Source: Thiohalobacter sp. (lineage in GTDB: Bacteria; Pseudomonadota; Gammaproteobacteria; Thiohalobacterales; Thiohalobacteraceae). Taken from it: a DNA stretch of 32,551 bases. The notes below the pieces were generated by a model, which did not search any database, was not told where the DNA came from, and saw only the letters and a list, made by a program, of their open reading frames with translations. The stretch covers positions 1 to 32,551 of the forward strand of contig NZ_JALTON010000060.1 in NCBI RefSeq assembly GCF_027000115.1, given 5' to 3'. Position 1 is the first letter of the stretch, and every line of letters starts with the position of its first letter. Positions 12,402 through 20,648 of this stretch are shown here, one piece after another. Both the position numbers and the translations under genes were made by a program.

Positions 12402-14495
12402 GTGTCGACGGACGACAAGCTGCTTCGCCTCATCATCGCCGAGGAATCCCGGAACGACGCCGAGGCCGTTGCCAACATCCTGCGCAATGCCGGCCATGCC
12501 GTGCGCTTCCACTATGTGGAGGACACAGAGGATCTCGAGAATGCCCTCGACCAGCAGGTCCCGGACCTGATCATCCTCTCCGAGGGCCTGGAAGGACTCG
12601 GCCTGGACGCGCTGCGCACCGAACTGGACAGCCGCAAGCTGGACATCCCCGTCATCCTCATGGCCGCCGAGGCCAACGAGGCGGAGGTGGTCGAGGCCCT
12701 GCGCGCCGGCGCCACCGACCTGGTGTCCTTCGACCAGCCCGACCACCTGCGGCTGGTGGTCGAACGCGAGCAGAAGAGCCTGCATACCCGACGCGCCCTG
12801 CAGCGATTCGAAACCATCTACAGGGAAAGCGAGCGCCGCTGCCGCGCACTGCTGGACACCTCGCGCGACGCCATCGCCTACGTGCACGACGGCATGCATA
12901 TCTATGCCAACCAGTCCTATCTGGAGATGTTCGGCTTCGACGACATGGAGGAAATCGAGGGCCACCCGATCATGGACATGGTCGCGCCGGAGGACCATGG
13001 CTCCTTCAAGGATTTCCTGCGCAGCTACGGCAAGGAGGACAGCGAGGAGATCGCCGAGCTGGAGGTTTCCTGCGTCAGCGCCAGCAAGGGCAGCTTCAAG
13101 GCGCTGATGGAGTTCGCGCCCGCCTCCATCGAGGGCGAGGCCTGCACCCAGATCGTCATCCGTGACCGTTCGACCGCAGACCCGGAACTGGCCGAGAAGC
13201 TCAGGCACCTGAGCAAGCAGGACATGCTCACCGGCCTGTTCAATCGCCAGTACTTCATGGAAGAGGTGGAACTGGCCGTCTCCGAGGCGGTCACCGGCGG
13301 CGAGAGCAGCGGCGTGCTCTACGTGCTGCTGGACAACTTCAAGCAGGTCAAGGAAAGCGTCGGCCTGGCTGCCAGCGACCTGGTCATCAAGGACATCGCC
13401 GATCTCATTCGCAACAAGGTGGGCGACAGCGGCATCGCCGCCCGCTTCGGCGACAACACCTTTGCCGTGCTTTGCCGCGGCAGCGACATCGACGCCGCCC
13501 AGGCCCTGGCCGAGGCCATCCGCCACAGTGTCGAGGAGCATATCGTCGATGTCGAGGGCCGTTCGGTCACCGTCACCTGCTCGGTCGGCATCAGCCTGAT
13601 CACCGAGTCGGCCCCCGAAGCCGCCGAGGTCATGGCCCGGGCGGACCTGGCCTGCGAGGTGGCGCGCTCCGCCGGCGGCAACCGCGTGCACCTGCACAAT
13701 CCGGTCACCGACGAACAGCGCGGCAGGGAACGCGAGGCGCAATGGAAACAACTGATCAAGGAGGGACTGGAGCAGGACCGCTTCCACCTGGTCTACCAGC
13801 CCATCGTCAGCCTGCAGGGCGACCCGCAGGAAAAATACGAGGTGCTGCTGCGGCTGCGCGACGCCGAGGGCCAGGACTACCTGCCGGGCCAGTTCCTGCC
13901 GGTGGCCATCGACGGCGGCCTCATCGCCGAGATCGATCGCTGGGTCATCGCCCATGCCATCGAGGTACTGGCCGAGCACCGGCGTCAGGACCACGACACC
14001 CAGTTCTTCGTCAAGGTGTCCGGCGTGACGCTTGCCGACCAGGAACTGCCGCTGTGGATCAACGAGCAGCTCAAGGCGGCGCGCCTGCAGAGCGACGCCA
14101 TCGTGTTCGAGATCGCGGAAAAGGAGGCCAGCCAACACCTCAAGCATGCCAAGGCCTTCATCAAGGCGGTCAAGGCGCTGCACATAGGCACCTCGCTGGA
14201 ACACTTCGGCAGCAGCCCCAATTCCTTCCAGCTGCTCAAGCACGCCGATGTCGACTACCTCAAGATCGACGGCGCCTTCATCCACAACCTGATGAAGGAC
14301 GAGAACAACCAGGCCATGGTCAAGTCGATCGTGGAAATGGCCCGCTCCATGAACAAGCAATGCGTGGCCGAGTTCGTCGAGGACGCCTCCAGCGTGGCCA
14401 TGCTGTTCCAGTTCGGTGTCCAGTACATCCAGGGCTACTTCCTGCAGGAACCCCATCCCGCGCTGGACTACGACTTCTCCGAGGAATCACTGTAG
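12402..14495 (+). CDS. fimX: FimX-type degenerate GGDEF/EAL c-di-GMP receptor
   Basis: A 697-residue protein with four domains. The first is a REC-like domain (about 8-125) in which the phospho-acceptor position reads DLIILSEG instead of an Asp. Then come a PAS domain (about 138-255), a GGDEF domain (about 265-425) whose signature is GDNTF at 350-354, and an EAL domain (about 440-690) with EVL at 480-482. The loop-6 DDFG motif is replaced by LEHFG. All catalytic signatures are therefore lost, as in Pseudomonas FimX (691 residues, also EVL), which binds c-di-GMP through its EAL domain and controls type IV pilus assembly and twitching. The GTG start at 12402 has a strong GGAGGA ribosome binding site. 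The FimX role is by family resemblance; no pilus genes are in the window. Confidence 0.9.
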   Translation: MSTDDKLLRLIIAEESRNDAEAVANILRNAGHAVRFHYVEDTEDLENALDQQVPDLIILSEGLEGLGLDALRTELDSRKLDIPVILMAAEANEAEVVEALRAGATDLVSFDQPDHLRLVVEREQKSLHTRRALQRFETIYRESERRCRALLDTSRDAIAYVHDGMHIYANQSYLEMFGFDDMEEIEGHPIMDMVAPEDHGSFKDFLRSYGKEDSEEIAELEVSCVSASKGSFKALMEFAPASIEGEACTQIVIRDRSTADPELAEKLRHLSKQDMLTGLFNRQYFMEEVELAVSEAVTGGESSGVLYVLLDNFKQVKESVGLAASDLVIKDIADLIRNKVGDSGIAARFGDNTFAVLCRGSDIDAAQALAEAIRHSVEEHIVDVEGRSVTVTCSVGISLITESAPEAAEVMARADLACEVARSAGGNRVHLHNPVTDEQRGREREAQWKQLIKEGLEQDRFHLVYQPIVSLQGDPQEKYEVLLRLRDAEGQDYLPGQFLPVAIDGGLIAEIDRWVIAHAIEVLAEHRRQDHDTQFFVKVSGVTLADQELPLWINEQLKAARLQSDAIVFEIAEKEASQHLKHAKAFIKAVKALHIGTSLEHFGSSPNSFQLLKHADVDYLKIDGAFIHNLMKDENNQAMVKSIVEMARSMNKQCVAEFVEDASSVAMLFQFGVQYIQGYFLQEPHPALDYDFSEESL

Positions 14496-14543
14496 GCGCC
14501 TCCTCGCTGGCGCAACCTGGACCGGCTCCATTCCGGCGGGCGC

Positions 14544-14557
14544 TTGATCTGGATCAA
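14544..14557 (+). promoter_or_regulatory. FNR-type box upstream of pdxS-pdxT-ubiT
   Basis: TTGATCTGGATCAA matches the FNR consensus TTGAT-N4-ATCAA perfectly. Its centre (14550.5) lies about 42 bp before the start point predicted from the CATAAT hexamer at 14581-14586, which is class II activator spacing. The box is nested in a GC-rich inverted repeat (GGCGGG 14535-14540, CCCGCC 14559-14564), which might also act as a hairpin after fimX. Expected effect: activation at low oxygen. Confidence 0.75.
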
Positions 14558-14580
14558 ACCCGCCCGCGCCGCGGCTTCGC

Positions 14581-14586
14581 CATAAT
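14581..14586 (+). promoter_or_regulatory. Predicted -10 element of the pdxS operon
   Basis: CATAAT matches TATAAT at five of six positions. It stands at the distance expected from the FNR-type box for an activator-dependent promoter with no good -35 element. The predicted start is near 14593, giving a 5' leader of about 39 nt before pdxS. Confidence 0.6.
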
Positions 14587-14631
14587 CGCTGCGCCCGGCC
14601 TGCACGCCAGGCGCAGTCGAGCGAAGCCCTC

Positions 14632-15522
14632 ATGTTTGTGCAGAAGGATTCCCGCCATCGTCTCAAGATCGGCCTCGCCGAGATGCTCAAGGGCGGCGTC
14701 ATCATGGACGTCACCACCCCCGAGCAGGCGCGCATCGCCGAGCGTGCCGGCGCCGTGGCGGTCATGGCCCTGGAGCGGATTCCCGCCGACATCCGCCGGG
14801 ATGGCGGCGTGGCGCGCATGTCCGACCCCGCGCTGATCGACGCCATCCGCGATGCGGTGTCGATACCGGTCATGGCCAAGTGCCGCATCGGCCATGTCAG
14901 CGAGGCGCGCATCCTGGAGGCGCTGGAGGTCGACTTCATCGACGAAAGCGAGGTGCTGACCCCGGCCGACGAACAGCATCATATCGACAAGTGGGCATTC
15001 GAGATCCCCTTCGTCTGTGGCGCCACCGACCTGGGCGAGGCCCTGCGCCGCATCGGCGAGGGCGCGGCCATGATCCGCACCAAGGGCGAGGCCGGCAGCG
15101 GCAACATCGTCGAGGCCGTGCGCCACCTGCGGCTGATCCGCCGCCAGATCGGCGAACTGTCCGCGCTGCCGCGCGAGGAGTGGATGCGGGCCGCGCGCGA
15201 GCTGGGCGCACCCCACGCGCTGGTGGAACAGGTGGCCACCCTCGGCCGCCTGCCGGTGCCGGCCTTCTCCGCCGGCGGCATCGCCACCCCCGCCGATGCC
15301 GCGCTGGTGCGGGAACTGGGGGCCGAGGCCGTGTTCGTCGGCTCCGGCATCTTCCGCTCCGAGGACCCGGAGGCGCGCGCCGCGGCCATCGTGCAGGCGA
15401 CCACCTGGTTCGACTGCCCGGAAATCCTGGCCGAGGTATCGCGCGGCCTGCGCGAGGCCATGCCCGGCATCGAGCTGGGCGGCCTGGACGACGACCAGCG
15501 CATGGCGCGGCGGGGCTGGTAG
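14632..15522 (+). CDS. pdxS: Pyridoxal 5'-phosphate synthase subunit PdxS
   Basis: A 296-residue (beta/alpha)8 enzyme that builds PLP directly from ribose 5-phosphate, glyceraldehyde 3-phosphate and ammonia. [19 protein letters not shown] contains D26; MAKCRIGH gives the Schiff-base lysine K83; [12 protein letters not shown] gives the second lysine K151; [13 protein letters not shown] binds phosphate. Ammonia comes from PdxT, whose gene starts 2 bp after the pdxS stop. This DXP-independent route uses no oxygen, unlike PdxH in the route typical of gammaproteobacteria. An FNR-type promoter lies upstream. The ribosome binding site before ATG 14632 is weak, but the N-terminus fits the family. Confidence 0.97.
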
Positions 15523-15524
15523 CC

Positions 15525-16094
15525 ATGAGTACCGTCGGCATCCTTGCCCTGCAGGGTGACGTCGAACGCCACGAGGCGGCGCTGGAATCACTGGGCCACG
15601 CCACCCAGCGGGTGCGCGGCGCCGCGGAACTCGACGGCTGCAGCGCGCTGGTAATCCCCGGTGGCGAGTCCACCACCCTTTCCACCCTGCTGCACCGGCG
15701 TGGGCTCACCGCAGCCCTGCGCCGCTTCGGCGCATCGCATCCGGTACTGGGCACCTGCGCCGGGCTGGTACTGATGGCGCGCGACAACGGTGATACGCGG
15801 GTCGCCTCGCTGGGGCTGCTGGACGTGCGCCTGCAGCGCAACCACTACGGCAGCCAGCGCCACAGCTTCAGCACCGACCTGGAAGTGCCGGCGCTTGCCG
15901 AGGGTCCGCTGGCGGCCGACTTCATCCGCGCGCCCGCCATTCTCGATGCAGGTCCCGGGGTGGAAGTGCTCGCGCGCTGCGACGGCCTGCCCGTGCTGGT
16001 GCGGCAGGGCCGGCATGTCGGTGCCAGCTTCCACCCCGAACTCGCCGGTGACGCGCGCATCCATCGCCTGTGGCTGGAAGGCGCCTGCCACTGA
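15525..16094 (+). CDS. pdxT: PLP synthase glutaminase subunit PdxT
   Basis: A 189-residue class I glutamine amidotransferase starting MSTVGILALQGDVERHEAAL. The catalytic triad is visible: C78 in LGTCAGL, and H170 and E172 in SFHPEL. PGGEST (about 46-51) is the oxyanion region. It hydrolyses glutamine and channels ammonia to PdxS, forming the PdxS12-PdxT12 complex. The ATG lies 2 bp after the pdxS stop and the pdxT stop is 6 bp before ubiT, so all three are one operon. Confidence 0.97.
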   Translation: MSTVGILALQGDVERHEAALESLGHATQRVRGAAELDGCSALVIPGGESTTLSTLLHRRGLTAALRRFGASHPVLGTCAGLVLMARDNGDTRVASLGLLDVRLQRNHYGSQRHSFSTDLEVPALAEGPLAADFIRAPAILDAGPGVEVLARCDGLPVLVRQGRHVGASFHPELAGDARIHRLWLEGACH

Positions 16095-16100
16095 CCGCCG

Positions 16101-16628
16101 ATGACCGCCCCCGACATCTACCAGCCCTCGGCCCGCACCCTCCGGCCGCTGCCCGGGGTGCCGGCCCCGCTGGCGGCCCTGTCGCGGCTGCTGCCGGGTG
16201 CGCCATCGGCCTGGCTGGCACCGCGGCTGCTCGACCGCATGTTCGTGGCCGAACGCGAATGCGGGGCACTGGATTTCCTCACCGACCGCCAGGTGCTGCT
16301 GCGGGTGAGCGACCTCGATCTTTCCCTGCCGCTCGGCTACCGCGGGCGCCGCTTCCGCCGCGCCGATCCGCGACGACAGCCGGTGCATCTGCGCCTGGAG
16401 GGGCCGCTGTACGGCTTCCTGCTGCTGGCGGCACGCCGCGAGGACCCGGACACCCTGTTCTTCCAGCGCCAGCTGCGCCTGTCCGGCGACACCGAACTGG
16501 GCCTGGAACTGAAGAACTTCCTCGACGGCCTGGATGCCTCGCCGGCCCGGCAGCGACTGGCCGCAGTCGCGGAACAGATGCTGGGCGTCGCCGATCGGCT
16601 GAGCGGAAAACAGGCGGGAAGCGACTGA
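16101..16628 (+). CDS. ubiT: Ubiquinone biosynthesis accessory factor UbiT (SCP2 domain)
   Basis: A 175-residue protein with an SCP2 lipid-binding domain (about 40-140; FVAERECGALDFLTDRQVLLRVSDLDLSLPLGYRG). In E. coli UbiT (YhbT) is required for oxygen-independent ubiquinone synthesis with UbiU and UbiV, probably by binding lipophilic intermediates. Family membership is supported by context: ubiU and ubiV face it across 175 bp. It is the last gene of the pdxS-pdxT-ubiT operon and so inherits its FNR-type promoter. It has no catalytic motif of its own. Confidence 0.88.
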   Translation: MTAPDIYQPSARTLRPLPGVPAPLAALSRLLPGAPSAWLAPRLLDRMFVAERECGALDFLTDRQVLLRVSDLDLSLPLGYRGRRFRRADPRRQPVHLRLEGPLYGFLLLAARREDPDTLFFQRQLRLSGDTELGLELKNFLDGLDASPARQRLAAVAEQMLGVADRLSGKQAGSD

Positions 16629-16765
16629 AACGATAGCCACGGCTTCCACTGGACCCACGGAAACTGCCGATCGCCCTGCACGGTTTCCTGCCAAGGGCAG
16701 CGAATGTTCGTTACCCTGGGTTCGGTGGATTCAGTGGCCATCGTCCAAAAGACCACCGTGCAGGG

Positions 16766-16781
16766 CCGCCGCAACCGGCGG
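16766..16781. terminator. Weak hairpin between convergent ubiT and ubiV
   Basis: CCGCCG and CGGCGG form a perfect 6-bp stem around CAAC. It lies in the 175-bp gap where the two transcripts converge. There is no T tract on either side, so termination here is only a possibility. The rest of this gap shows no gene or clear site. Confidence 0.3.
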
Positions 16782-16803
16782 ACGACGGGCGTTTCCATCC
16801 TCG

Positions 16804-17697
16804 TCAGCAAGGGACCCGCGCCATGCCGGGCTCGCCATGCCAGAAGCCGTTGCCCGGCGCCAGCGGCAGCATCGCATCCAGGCGGGCGGCCTCTGTCTGC
16901 GGGTCCGCCTCGCCCCGACGCACCGCGTCGAAGGCGGCGACCACTTCGGCCATGCCCTCGGCCTCCGGATACAGCCGCAACCATTCCACGCCGATTTCCG
17001 CCAGCGCGGGCAGTTCCGCCAGCAGGCTGAAGGGGGCGGCGGGCTGGAGCTGGATGCCATTGATGTTGAGAAAGGGCTCACCGTTGCGGGTACGCAGCAG
17101 CTCGCCGGCCGGGTCTTCCAGACAGCGAAAGCCGCACTCGTCCTTGGCCAGATCGTGGGCGCGAGCGGTGAAGCAGCGCGCCGAATGCGCGAGCCCCGGC
17201 CGCCCGAACACCGTGACCTCCGTTTCCACACCCGACGGACGCGCGTCGTGCAGGGCGCGGCATTCACGCTCACCCAGCTCCACCGGCAGCACCCAGCGCA
17301 CCATGCCCGCGGCCGCCAGCCGCTTCATGGCGCGAACGTTGTAGAGGTTGATCCCCGGTCCGGCAACGAAGGGGGCACCCTCGCGCAGCTGCGCCCCGGC
17401 CAGGTCGTTCACCTCGACCGGATAATCGCGCTGGCTGCACAGCCGGCGCAGCGTCGCCAGCTCCGAGCCGGCGCTGATCAGCAACAGCGAGGACAGCACC
17501 ACCTGCTTGCCGGCCGCGCTCAGAAAGGCCACCAGTTCCTGCCAGTCCGCCTCGCGCAACTGGCGCCGCTTGGCGCAGACGTTCTCGCCGAGATAGACCA
17601 GATCCACCGGCCACTCGGCCACCTGCCGATAAAAGGCGAACACCTGTTCACGCGGCCAGAAATACTGGATGGGCGCAAGGCTCAGTCGCGGCCTCAT
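16804..17697 (-). CDS. ubiV: Oxygen-independent ubiquinone hydroxylase subunit UbiV
   Basis: A 297-residue U32-peptidase-family protein (E. coli UbiV has 292). Four cysteines likely bind a [4Fe-4S] cluster: C41 in GENVCAKRRQL, C175 in SARCFTARA, and C188 and C192 in DECGFRC. The spacing of the last three equals that of E. coli C180, C193 and C197. With UbiU it carries out hydroxylations of the ubiquinone ring without O2. The start MRPRLSLAPIQYFWPRE at 17697 is chosen by family fit; the longer frame runs through ubiU antisense to its coding sense. It is encoded 10 bp after ubiU. Confidence 0.95.
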   Translation of the reverse strand: MRPRLSLAPIQYFWPREQVFAFYRQVAEWPVDLVYLGENVCAKRRQLREADWQELVAFLSAAGKQVVLSSLLLISAGSELATLRRLCSQRDYPVEVNDLAGAQLREGAPFVAGPGINLYNVRAMKRLAAAGMVRWVLPVELGERECRALHDARPSGVETEVTVFGRPGLAHSARCFTARAHDLAKDECGFRCLEDPAGELLRTRNGEPFLNINGIQLQPAAPFSLLAELPALAEIGVEWLRLYPEAEGMAEVVAAFDAVRRGEADPQTEAARLDAMLPLAPGNGFWHGEPGMARVPC

Positions 17698-17707
17698 CGC
17701 GGATTCC

Positions 17708-18700
17708 TCATCGCCAGGGCCGGGCGTAGGCGCCCAGCGTGGTCTGTACGCCCTCGGCGACCCGGCCCAGGCTGCGCTGCCAGTCCTCGCGTACCCTGAA
17801 GCCGTCGCCCGCGGCGAGGCTGTCGATGGCCTCGCGCCAGACGCGGGTGACACTGGCGACATACTGCGGACTGCGCTGCCGGCCCTCGATCTTGATCGCG
17901 GCCACCCCCGCGGTCTTGAGTTCCGGCAGCAGCGCCAGGGTATTGAGACTGGTCGGTTCCTCCAGCACGTAGCCCACGCGGCCGTCGACCTCGAAGCGCC
18001 CCTTGCAAAGCGTCGGGTAGCCGGCCAGCTCGTCGGCCCCGTAGCGGTCGATGAGCACGCCGTTGAGCCGGGTTTCCAGAAGATCGCCGTCGTTTTCCCA
18101 GGACACGTAACGCGCCGGCGAACAGGCCCCGCAGGTGTTGGGCGACTCACCCGTGACATAGGAGGACAGGAAACAACGCCCCTCGGCCATCACGCACAGG
18201 CTGCCGAAGCCGAACACCTCGATCTCGGCCGGCGCGGATTCGGCCAGCGCGCGGACCTGGGCCAGTGACAGCACCCGCGGCAGCACCACCCGCTGCACGC
18301 CGAACCGCTCGACATGGAAACGGATGGCCTCGGCATTGGTGGCGGAGGCCTGCACCGACAGATGCAGGCGCAGGCCGGGGTGGCGCTCCGCCGCATGGTC
18401 CAGCACCCCGAGATCCGCGGCGATCAAGGCATCCACCCCCAACTCTGCGGCGCGGTCCACCGCCTTCTGCCAACGCGGCCAGCCATCCGGACGCGGATAG
18501 GTGTTGAGCGCCAGGAACACCTTGCGGCCGCGCTCGCGGGCGTAGGCAATCGCCTTGGCAATATCGTGGCCGGAAAAGTTGAGCCCGGCGAAGTGCCGCG
18601 CATTGGTGTCGTCGCGAAAGCCGAGATAGACGGCGTCCGCACCATTGTCCACCGCTGCCTTCAGCGACGGCAGATTACCCGCGGGGCAGACCAGTTCCAT
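17708..18700 (-). CDS. ubiU: Oxygen-independent ubiquinone hydroxylase subunit UbiU
   Basis: A 330-residue U32-family protein (E. coli UbiU 331). It begins MELVCPAGNLPSLKAAVDNGADAVYLG. Cysteines C169, C176, C193 and C232 fall at the same numbers reported for the [4Fe-4S] ligands of E. coli UbiU, with an extra C190. It forms a heterodimer with UbiV for anaerobic ubiquinone synthesis. A GGGAGG ribosome binding site precedes the ATG at 18700. Its first 26 bp overlap the end of the radical SAM gene upstream, so the three genes are one operon under the FNR/ANR-type box near 19676. Confidence 0.96.
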   Translation of the reverse strand: MELVCPAGNLPSLKAAVDNGADAVYLGFRDDTNARHFAGLNFSGHDIAKAIAYARERGRKVFLALNTYPRPDGWPRWQKAVDRAAELGVDALIAADLGVLDHAAERHPGLRLHLSVQASATNAEAIRFHVERFGVQRVVLPRVLSLAQVRALAESAPAEIEVFGFGSLCVMAEGRCFLSSYVTGESPNTCGACSPARYVSWENDGDLLETRLNGVLIDRYGADELAGYPTLCKGRFEVDGRVGYVLEEPTSLNTLALLPELKTAGVAAIKIEGRQRSPQYVASVTRVWREAIDSLAAGDGFRVREDWQRSLGRVAEGVQTTLGAYARPWR

Positions 18701-19604
18701 TACGATACCTCCCGGAACGCCGCGCCAGCGCGCGCTCCACTGCATTGAGCACCCGCCATTTCCAGGCACACCAGTGCGGCGCCAGCAGCAGGCGCGGCTC
18801 CGCCGTTCCGGTCAGGCGGTGAAAAACGATACCCGGCGGCGTGGCGCGCACCAGTTCCGCCACCAGATTCACGTACCAGTCGAAGGCCGGCGGCCGGTAC
18901 TCGCCGCGGCGCCACTCGTTGGCGAGCCGGGTGCCCTTGACCACGTGCAGCGGATGCAGCTTGAGACCCTCCACGCCCAGCGCCAGCACCCGGCGATGGG
19001 TCTCGCGCACATGCCAGGCGTCCTCGCCGGGCAGGCCGAGGATCAGGTGGGTACACAGCGGCAGGCCGCGCGCGCGTGCCCGCTGCACGGCGTCGGCATA
19101 CTCGGCGAAGCCGTGGCCGCGATTGACCCGCGCCAGCGTGTGATCGAAGGCCGACTGCAGCCCCAGCTCCAGCCACACCTCGTAGCCCTGCGCCCGGTAC
19201 TCCGCCAGCAGGTCCAGCACGGCATCGGGCACGCAGTCGGGGCGAGTACCGATGCTCAGGCCGATGACATCGGGCTCGGCCAGCGCCTCCTCGTAGCGCG
19301 CACGCAGCACTGCCACATCGGCATAGGTATTGGTGTAGGCCTGGAAATAGGCAATGTAACGCTGCGCACCGGTGCGCTTGCGGATCACCCGGCGCCCGGC
19401 CTCGATCTGCTCGGCCACCGACGGCGGCCGGCGCGCGGCCGGACTGAAGGACTGGTTGTTGCAGAAGGTGCAGCCGCCGATGCCGCGGCTGCCGTCGCGG
19501 TTGGGGCAGGTGAAGCCGGCGTGAATGGCCAGCTTGTGTACCCGCCGGCCATGACGGCGCAAGAGATCCTGACCGAAGGTGGAAACGTACTGATGCAGGG
19601 CCAT
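18675..19604 (-). CDS. YhcC-family radical SAM protein (TIGR01212-like)
   Basis: A 309-residue radical SAM protein, the same length as E. coli YhcC as I recall it. The cluster-binding region reads CPNRDGSRGIGGCTFC, with C33, C45 and C48, an elongated first spacing characteristic of this family. Further support comes from SFSPAARRPPSVAEQIEAG, YFQAYTNTYADVAVLRARYEEAL and IGLSIGTRPDC. The reaction is unknown. The start MALHQYVSTFGQDLLRRHG at 19604 is preferred to an in-frame ATG 39 bp upstream because it aligns with family N-termini. It heads the operon with ubiU and ubiV, suggesting a role under low oxygen. Confidence 0.92.
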   Translation of the reverse strand: MALHQYVSTFGQDLLRRHGRRVHKLAIHAGFTCPNRDGSRGIGGCTFCNNQSFSPAARRPPSVAEQIEAGRRVIRKRTGAQRYIAYFQAYTNTYADVAVLRARYEEALAEPDVIGLSIGTRPDCVPDAVLDLLAEYRAQGYEVWLELGLQSAFDHTLARVNRGHGFAEYADAVQRARARGLPLCTHLILGLPGEDAWHVRETHRRVLALGVEGLKLHPLHVVKGTRLANEWRRGEYRPPAFDWYVNLVAELVRATPPGIVFHRLTGTAEPRLLLAPHWCAWKWRVLNAVERALARRSGRYRNGTGLPRG

Positions 19605-19669
19605 GGGACCATCCGCCGGCGGGCGCACAAGGAATTGGCGCATTGTCCGGCGGGCGCCGGCACGCGGCT

Positions 19670-19683
19670 TTGACCTGCGTCAA
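19670..19683 (-). promoter_or_regulatory. FNR/ANR-type box upstream of yhcC-ubiU-ubiV
   Basis: TTGACCTGCGTCAA is a perfect inverted repeat TTGAC-N4-GTCAA, a variant of the FNR consensus known from ANR/DNR-type sites. Taking class II spacing on the minus strand, the predicted -10 falls on 19642-19647, which reads GACAAT (4 of 6 matches to TATAAT). The predicted start is then near 19635, about 31 nt before the yhcC ATG. The box is also 60 bp before the divergent dioxygenase gene. Confidence 0.65.
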
Positions 19684-19742: not shown

Positions 19743-20648
19743 ATGCCCCAGGCCACATCTGCAATCGACAACCCCTTCGATCCCGACGGCGATCCCGCGC
19801 CGTACCGGCGCTGGCGGGAGTGGAAGCTGGATCATCATCCCCGCCGCCTGGAGGACCTGGTGGTTACCCTCACCGACCCCGCGCGGCTCACGCCGGGCGA
19901 GCGCCAAGCGGTGATCGACCGCATCCGTCGCGCCAACATGGTCCTCTATGTCACCGACCCGGCACGGATCGAGGCCCGGCAGGTGCCGCTGCTGCTGGCC
20001 CGCCAGCTCGGCGTGAGCGGGCTGGACTGCAACTGGCTGGCGGAGGACGACGGCCTGACCGCGCTGAGCGTGCACGAGGACGCCCTCCATCGGGGCTACA
20101 TCCCCTACACCGACCGGCCCATCCAGTGGCATACCGACGGCTACTACAACCCGCCGGAGCGCCAGGTACACGCCCTGATGCTGCACGCGGAACGGCCAGC
20201 CGCCGAAGGCGGCGAGAACCGGCTGATGGATCACGAACTGCTCTACATCCTGCTGCGCGACGAGGACCCCGCGCTCATCCGCGCGCTGATGCGACCGCAG
20301 GCCCTGTCCATCCCCGCCCGGGTCGCCGGTGGCGACACCGCCCGGCCGCTCGCGCGCGGCCCGGTGTTCTCGATCACGGCACAGGGCAAGCTGCACCTGC
20401 GCTACACGGCGCGGCAGCGCAATGCCCTGTGGGAGGAAACGCCCGCCGTGCAGCGGGCGCAGGCGCGCATTCGCGAACTGCTGGAGCAGCCGTCACCCTG
20501 GATCTTCCAGGGCCGGCTGGAGGCCGGCATGGGCCTGATCAGCAACAACGTGCTGCACGATCGCAACGGCTTCCGCGACCCACCCGGATCACCCGGCCGC
20601 CTGCTGTATCGTGCCCGCTTTCACGGCCGGGTCACGGCCGCGGACTGA
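19743..20648 (+). CDS. TauD/TfdA-like Fe(II)/2-oxoglutarate-dependent dioxygenase
   Basis: A 301-residue protein. WHTDGYYN supplies the HxD pair (H130, D132) and SNNVLHDRNGF the distal histidine (H272), with a nearby arginine likely to bind 2-oxoglutarate. These are the iron-binding elements of the TauD/TfdA fold. The substrate cannot be told from sequence; it is not close enough to TauD to claim taurine. It is divergent from the yhcC-ubiUV operon with an FNR/ANR-type box between them, noteworthy since the enzyme itself would need O2. The ATG at 19743 has only a weak ribosome binding site. Confidence 0.82.
   Translation: MPQATSAIDNPFDPDGDPAPYRRWREWKLDHHPRRLEDLVVTLTDPARLTPGERQAVIDRIRRANMVLYVTDPARIEARQVPLLLARQLGVSGLDCNWLAEDDGLTALSVHEDALHRGYIPYTDRPIQWHTDGYYNPPERQVHALMLHAERPAAEGGENRLMDHELLYILLRDEDPALIRALMRPQALSIPARVAGGDTARPLARGPVFSITAQGKLHLRYTARQRNALWEETPAVQRAQARIRELLEQPSPWIFQGRLEAGMGLISNNVLHDRNGFRDPPGSPGRLLYRARFHGRVTAAD

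Follow-up and report, generated by a model that had tools for sequence, protein, structure and literature searches.

A perfect FNR box placed at class II distance from a -10 element heads the pdxS-pdxT-ubiT operon of Thiohalobacter sp., which joins the two subunits of PLP synthase with an accessory factor of O2-independent ubiquinone synthesis. This arrangement, found in the window (the whole 32,551-nucleotide stretch of DNA that was analysed), probably represents a class II FNR-dependent promoter that would activate the three genes as O2 falls. The remaining ubiquinone genes of the locus lie behind a similar box, and the two O2-independent cofactor routes would probably be switched on together in the absence of air.

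A predicted class II FNR promoter upstream of pdxS-pdxT-ubiT

The promoter elements and the genes behind them are:

14544..14557, + strand: FNR box TTGATCTGGATCAA, perfect palindromic consensus, kept in relatives
14581..14586, + strand: -10 element CATAAT, class II spacing, 23 nt 3' of the box end
14632..15522, + strand: pdxS, PLP synthase lyase subunit, 296 aa (NF003215, 488 bits; TIGR00343, 449 bits; PF01680)
15525..16094, + strand: pdxT, PLP synthase glutaminase subunit, 189 aa (TIGR03800, 182 bits)
16101..16628, + strand: ubiT, accessory factor of O2-independent ubiquinone synthesis, 175 aa (NF047962, 118 bits, cut-off 46.9)

Profile scores of PdxS, PdxT and UbiT all exceed the curated cut-offs and, with both PdxS and PdxT encoded, the DXP-independent PLP synthase has its two subunits. 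The intergenic gaps are 2 bp between pdxS and pdxT and 6 bp between pdxT and ubiT; therefore, the three genes probably form one operon.

In class II FNR promoters, the box is centred near -41.5, with about 22 nt between the box end and the -10 element. An earlier note on this DNA had described a perfect FNR box and CATAAT at class II distance without a good -35, and this description is confirmed. The box has 0 mismatches to the FNR consensus TTGATNNNNATCAA, the gap is 23 nt, and the -35 position is occupied by ACCCGC (at 14558), which is unlike TTGACA. Transcription of pdxS is predicted to start at 14592 or 14593, that is, 6-7 nt past the -10 element, which would put the box centre at -41.5 or -42.5. 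An ordinary sigma-70 promoter pair was not found anywhere in 14300-17000. The whole 2.65 Mb genome (63 contigs) contains four perfect boxes and not a single copy of the reversed control pattern, while TTGAYN4RTCAA sites number 18 genome-wide versus 4 for the control. Given this density, a particular 200 bp would contain a perfect box by chance with a probability of about 3e-4. The box lies within a G+C-rich inverted repeat.

A gene for a response-regulator/PAS/GGDEF/EAL protein (window 12402-14495, + strand) stops 48 bp 5' of the FNR box. We saw no terminator between the end of this gene (14495) and the pdxS operon, and read-through into pdxS is therefore possible.

The convergent mnmL-ubiU-ubiV operon

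The other two genes of O2-independent ubiquinone synthesis are on the minus strand, in an operon converging on ubiT:

16804..17688, - strand: ubiV, start approximate (NF047965, 353 bits)
17708..18700, - strand: ubiU (NF047963, 549 bits)
18675..19604, - strand: mnmL/ytqA-type radical SAM gene, first in mnmL-ubiU-ubiV, start probably 19604
19670..19683, - strand: FNR-type box TTGACGCAGGTCAA, upstream of mnmL-ubiUV, 22 nt before GACAAT, class II spacing

The first ATG of the mnmL reading frame, at 19643, overlaps the -10 element. Thus, the locus has the make-up of an FNR-controlled ubiTUV locus: ubiT, ubiU and ubiV are all present above cut-offs, and FNR-type boxes precede both operons. Since both box-to-hexamer spacings are class II, pdxS-pdxT-ubiT and mnmL-ubiU-ubiV would both have class II FNR-type promoters. 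Boxes occur before mnmL in relatives too, and in most of the relatives read it is this gene, with an FNR-type box 5' of it, that heads the ubiU-ubiV operon. The tRNA-modification family to which mnmL belongs has no obvious link to anaerobic ubiquinone synthesis. A gene of the TauD/TfdA dioxygenase family, whose members normally use O2, is also found near the ubiTUV-pdxST cluster in both families that we compared; its position varies, and in the window it occupies 19743-20648 (+ strand).

Conservation of the box and its association with ubiT

Most members of the window's family possess pdxS, and in a second family (f137) it occurs in 28 genomes. At 29 of the 38 pdxST loci read across these two gammaproteobacterial families, ubiT lies within the stretch. 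Boxes were called in 200 bp at p<0.02 versus shuffled sequence, using a weight matrix trained on 27 sites outside pdxS promoters (at unlinked ubiT, mnmL, fnr and the ccoN side). A box was found upstream of pdxS at 22/29 ubiT-linked loci but at 0/16 unlinked pdxST loci (Fisher 5e-7), some of the compared loci being closely related (the L214 and L215 sites are identical). Conservation in related genomes, which the earlier note had named as a check on its reading, is thus seen in two families. When only Fnr-positive genomes are considered, boxed pdxS promoters amount to 21/28 linked versus 0/5 unlinked (Fisher p=0.003); the contrast is weakened because many genomes with unlinked pdxST do not have Fnr and the Fnr-positive unlinked group comprises just five. 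At the remaining seven of the 29 linked loci, no box reached p<0.02 within 200 bp. One genome, G010, has only a 3-mismatch box, and it says little because its pdxS appears to be broken by a frame or assembly error.

The distance to the -10 element, which played no part in site selection, is conserved as well. A -10-like hexamer was scanned for between 8 and about 57 nt after the box in 24 boxed promoters, and the signal is strongest at a gap of 21-23 nt, matching class II spacing. The peak is unchanged in 18 non-redundant promoters (<60% alike), with a permutation P=0.00045 for a peak anywhere. The exceptions are L124 and L128 (27-28 nt) and L123 (45 nt). With box and spacing conserved in two families and a four-cysteine Fnr encoded in the genome (see below), the earlier proposal that pdxS-pdxT-ubiT has a class II promoter of FNR type is supported, as far as sequence can tell.

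Several loci indicate that the box accompanies ubiT and is not a general feature of pdxST. In G005, a member of the window's family in which ubiT is unlinked from pdxST, the box TTGATCTGAGTCAA is kept before ubiT, and there is no box upstream of pdxST, where the best match has 4 mismatches. In G004, a single perfect box sits between the divergent mnmL-ubiUV and pdxST-ubiT operons. Unlinked ubiT has its own FNR box in many other gammaproteobacteria. At the pdxST-ubiT loci of the window's family, no second box was found between pdxT and ubiT, and a genome of the second family (L195) instead has a one-mismatch box just 5' of ubiT. The gene order pdxST-ubiT is common to the two families and to many genera. 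PdxS proteins of both families fall in a single clade (support 0.50), which weakly fits a single origin of the operon followed by losses.

Regulators encoded in the genome

The genome encodes a canonical Fnr. It scores 299.7 bits against the NCBIfam Fnr profile (cut-off 228) and is 50% identical over 225 aa to E. coli FNR. The four cluster cysteines are kept (C-x2-C-x5-C plus the cysteine of VCEIPF), and the recognition helix reads ETVSRLFSRF. The fnr gene is itself preceded by a perfect FNR box, which stands about 10 nt before CATAAT (L135 12484-12513), placed as for autorepression. Other FNR-type boxes in the genome precede norC-, nnrS-, nos- and nap-like genes (identified by eye), as expected for an FNR/DNR-type regulon of a denitrifier. 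A third Crp/FNR protein, encoded on contig 37 (L037 1432-2145, - strand), has an E..SR-type recognition motif without the N-terminal cysteine cluster and is a candidate DNR-like NO sensor.

PLP synthesis in the window's genome and its relatives

It is established biochemistry that PdxST needs no O2. The earlier note had contrasted this route with the one ending in the oxidase PdxH, but that contrast does not survive: pdxJ and pdxA are present in the window's genome, whereas pdxH is absent from it and from all members of its family, and no PF01243 protein was found in the genome. PdxJ and PdxH are therefore not both available there as an aerobic alternative, and we reject the idea that PdxST is a plain anaerobic replacement for PdxH. 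A published list of ten genomes that carry both PLP routes includes Thiohalobacter, with the remark that the PdxJ route there may be incomplete (PMC9997740). Five genomes (G002, G003, G004, G005 and G008) have none of pdxJ, pdxA and pdxH, and PdxST seems to be their only recognisable de novo PLP route. In G002, G003, G004 and G008, this route lies behind an FNR-type box; therefore, some expression in the presence of O2 must have another source.

Discussion

The features described above suggest a simple mechanism. As O2 falls, a [4Fe-4S] Fnr dimer would bind 14544-14557 and contact RNA polymerase at the pdxS promoter, which has a -10 element but not a -35, and transcription of pdxS-pdxT-ubiT would rise. 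The matching FNR promoter at 19670-19683 would raise mnmL-ubiU-ubiV in step. The primary selected target was probably the O2-independent ubiquinone pathway (ubiT, ubiUV), PdxST coming under FNR control because it is co-transcribed with ubiT. The idea that pdxST-ubiT and mnmL-ubiUV make up a conserved FNR module, raising PLP synthesis for its own sake alongside O2-independent ubiquinone synthesis, is one we hold only tentatively and with some doubt. Were it true, FNR would control the PdxST route to an essential cofactor and, in some relatives, the only recognisable de novo route. We see about an even chance that the box is instead ubiT's inherited FNR site and that pdxST is a passenger inserted between promoter and ubiT, PLP having no special need of FNR. 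This is what one would read from G005, where ubiT alone has kept a box, from the boxless unlinked pdxST even of Fnr-positive genomes, and from the boxes at unlinked ubiT in many other gammaproteobacteria. On the other hand, the pdxST-ubiT order persists in both families and in many genera, with PdxS in one weakly supported clade, and such long conservation suggests some benefit from co-expression. In any case, an inserted pdxST is compatible with FNR activation, because the question then concerns the origin of the site and not the action of FNR on pdxST.

Other explanations bear on activation itself. DNR- and FNR-type sites have a common consensus, and another Crp/FNR-family regulator, such as a NO-responsive DNR-like protein, might act at the box, the signal then being NO or denitrification rather than O2. 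The boxes before denitrification-like genes and the contig-37 protein, with its E..SR-type motif and no cysteine cluster, are in line with this, but we consider it unlikely given that the genome encodes a canonical Fnr, that FNR activates ubiTUV in E. coli (PMC10470549) and that, as cited in PMC11707229, the same genes are under the action of FNR or a homologue of it in P. aeruginosa. Repression of pdxST by FNR when O2 is absent appears very improbable. FNR is able to act as a repressor when bound close to the -35/-10 region or across it, and the box before fnr is a plausible autorepression site; at pdxS, however, the conserved spacing is that of activation and there is no -35, and ubiT is needed anaerobically and is activated by FNR in E. 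coli (PMC10470549). Finally, a palindrome embedded in a G+C-rich inverted repeat could in principle be a product of chance or part of a hairpin or terminator, with no regulatory role. We reject this as scarcely credible: no terminator-like T run follows the box, a perfect box is rarely expected in 200 bp, and chance would account neither for its conservation and the contrast between ubiT-linked and unlinked loci nor for a fixed -10 spacing despite divergent flanks.

If our favoured reading of FNR activation is correct, vitamin B6 synthesis would come under the oxygen regulator FNR by way of an operon that it shares with the anaerobic ubiquinone pathway. The system offers a way to ask directly whether PLP supply has to change on oxygen loss.

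Comparison with known systems

The pdxS promoter resembles class II FNR promoters in its perfect TTGATNNNNATCAA, in the -10 element at class II distance without a -35, and in the presence of a canonical Fnr in the genome. The only difference in layout is a gap of 23 nt instead of the 22 nt implied by a centre at -41.5; activation is here a prediction. Transcriptional control of pdxST as such is not new, since PdxR, a MocR-type regulator, controls these genes in Gram-positive bacteria, as cited in PMC9997740, but both the regulator family and the signal differ. Another case is Actinobacillus pleuropneumoniae, for which an Fnr (HlyX) motif has been predicted upstream of pdxST (PMC10224306). That prediction comes from a loose motif search (p<0.001, with 63% of differential genes positive), pdxST was down in biofilm, and no link to ubiT was reported. 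Apart from this predicted motif, we found no description of an FNR-controlled pdxST-ubiT operon in the open-licence literature, and a conserved FNR-led operon joining PLP synthase with ubiT appears to be undescribed. The earlier note took oxygen control of PdxST-type synthesis to be undescribed, and for pdxST in a shared operon this agrees with the literature searched; the note did not mention that control of ubiT by FNR is established in E. coli (PMC10470549) and predicted across Pseudomonadota (PMC11707229), or that the box follows linkage to ubiT.

A close counterpart is the E. coli ubiTUV system (yhbT, yhbU, yhbV), in which FNR activation has been demonstrated (PMC10470549). The same O2-independent ubiquinone genes are involved, and FNR sites precede both ubiT and ubiU. 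However, ubiT of E. coli is transcribed from promoters of its own and pdx genes were not reported there, whereas in Thiohalobacter the FNR promoter is separated from ubiT by pdxS and pdxT, and ubiU is preceded by mnmL. The regulon logic is also the same as in a survey of Pseudomonadota in which 87% of ubiTUV triplets had predicted FNR sites (PMC11707229). Its scan covered the 450 bp in front of every ubi gene, and pdx is not mentioned in it. In the window, the box of each operon is farther away, about 1.5 kb from ubiT and about 1 kb from ubiU; boxes before pdxS and mnmL would therefore have been beyond the reach of that scan. This suggests that FNR sites placed, as here, ahead of longer operons would escape surveys restricted to the 450 bp before ubi genes.
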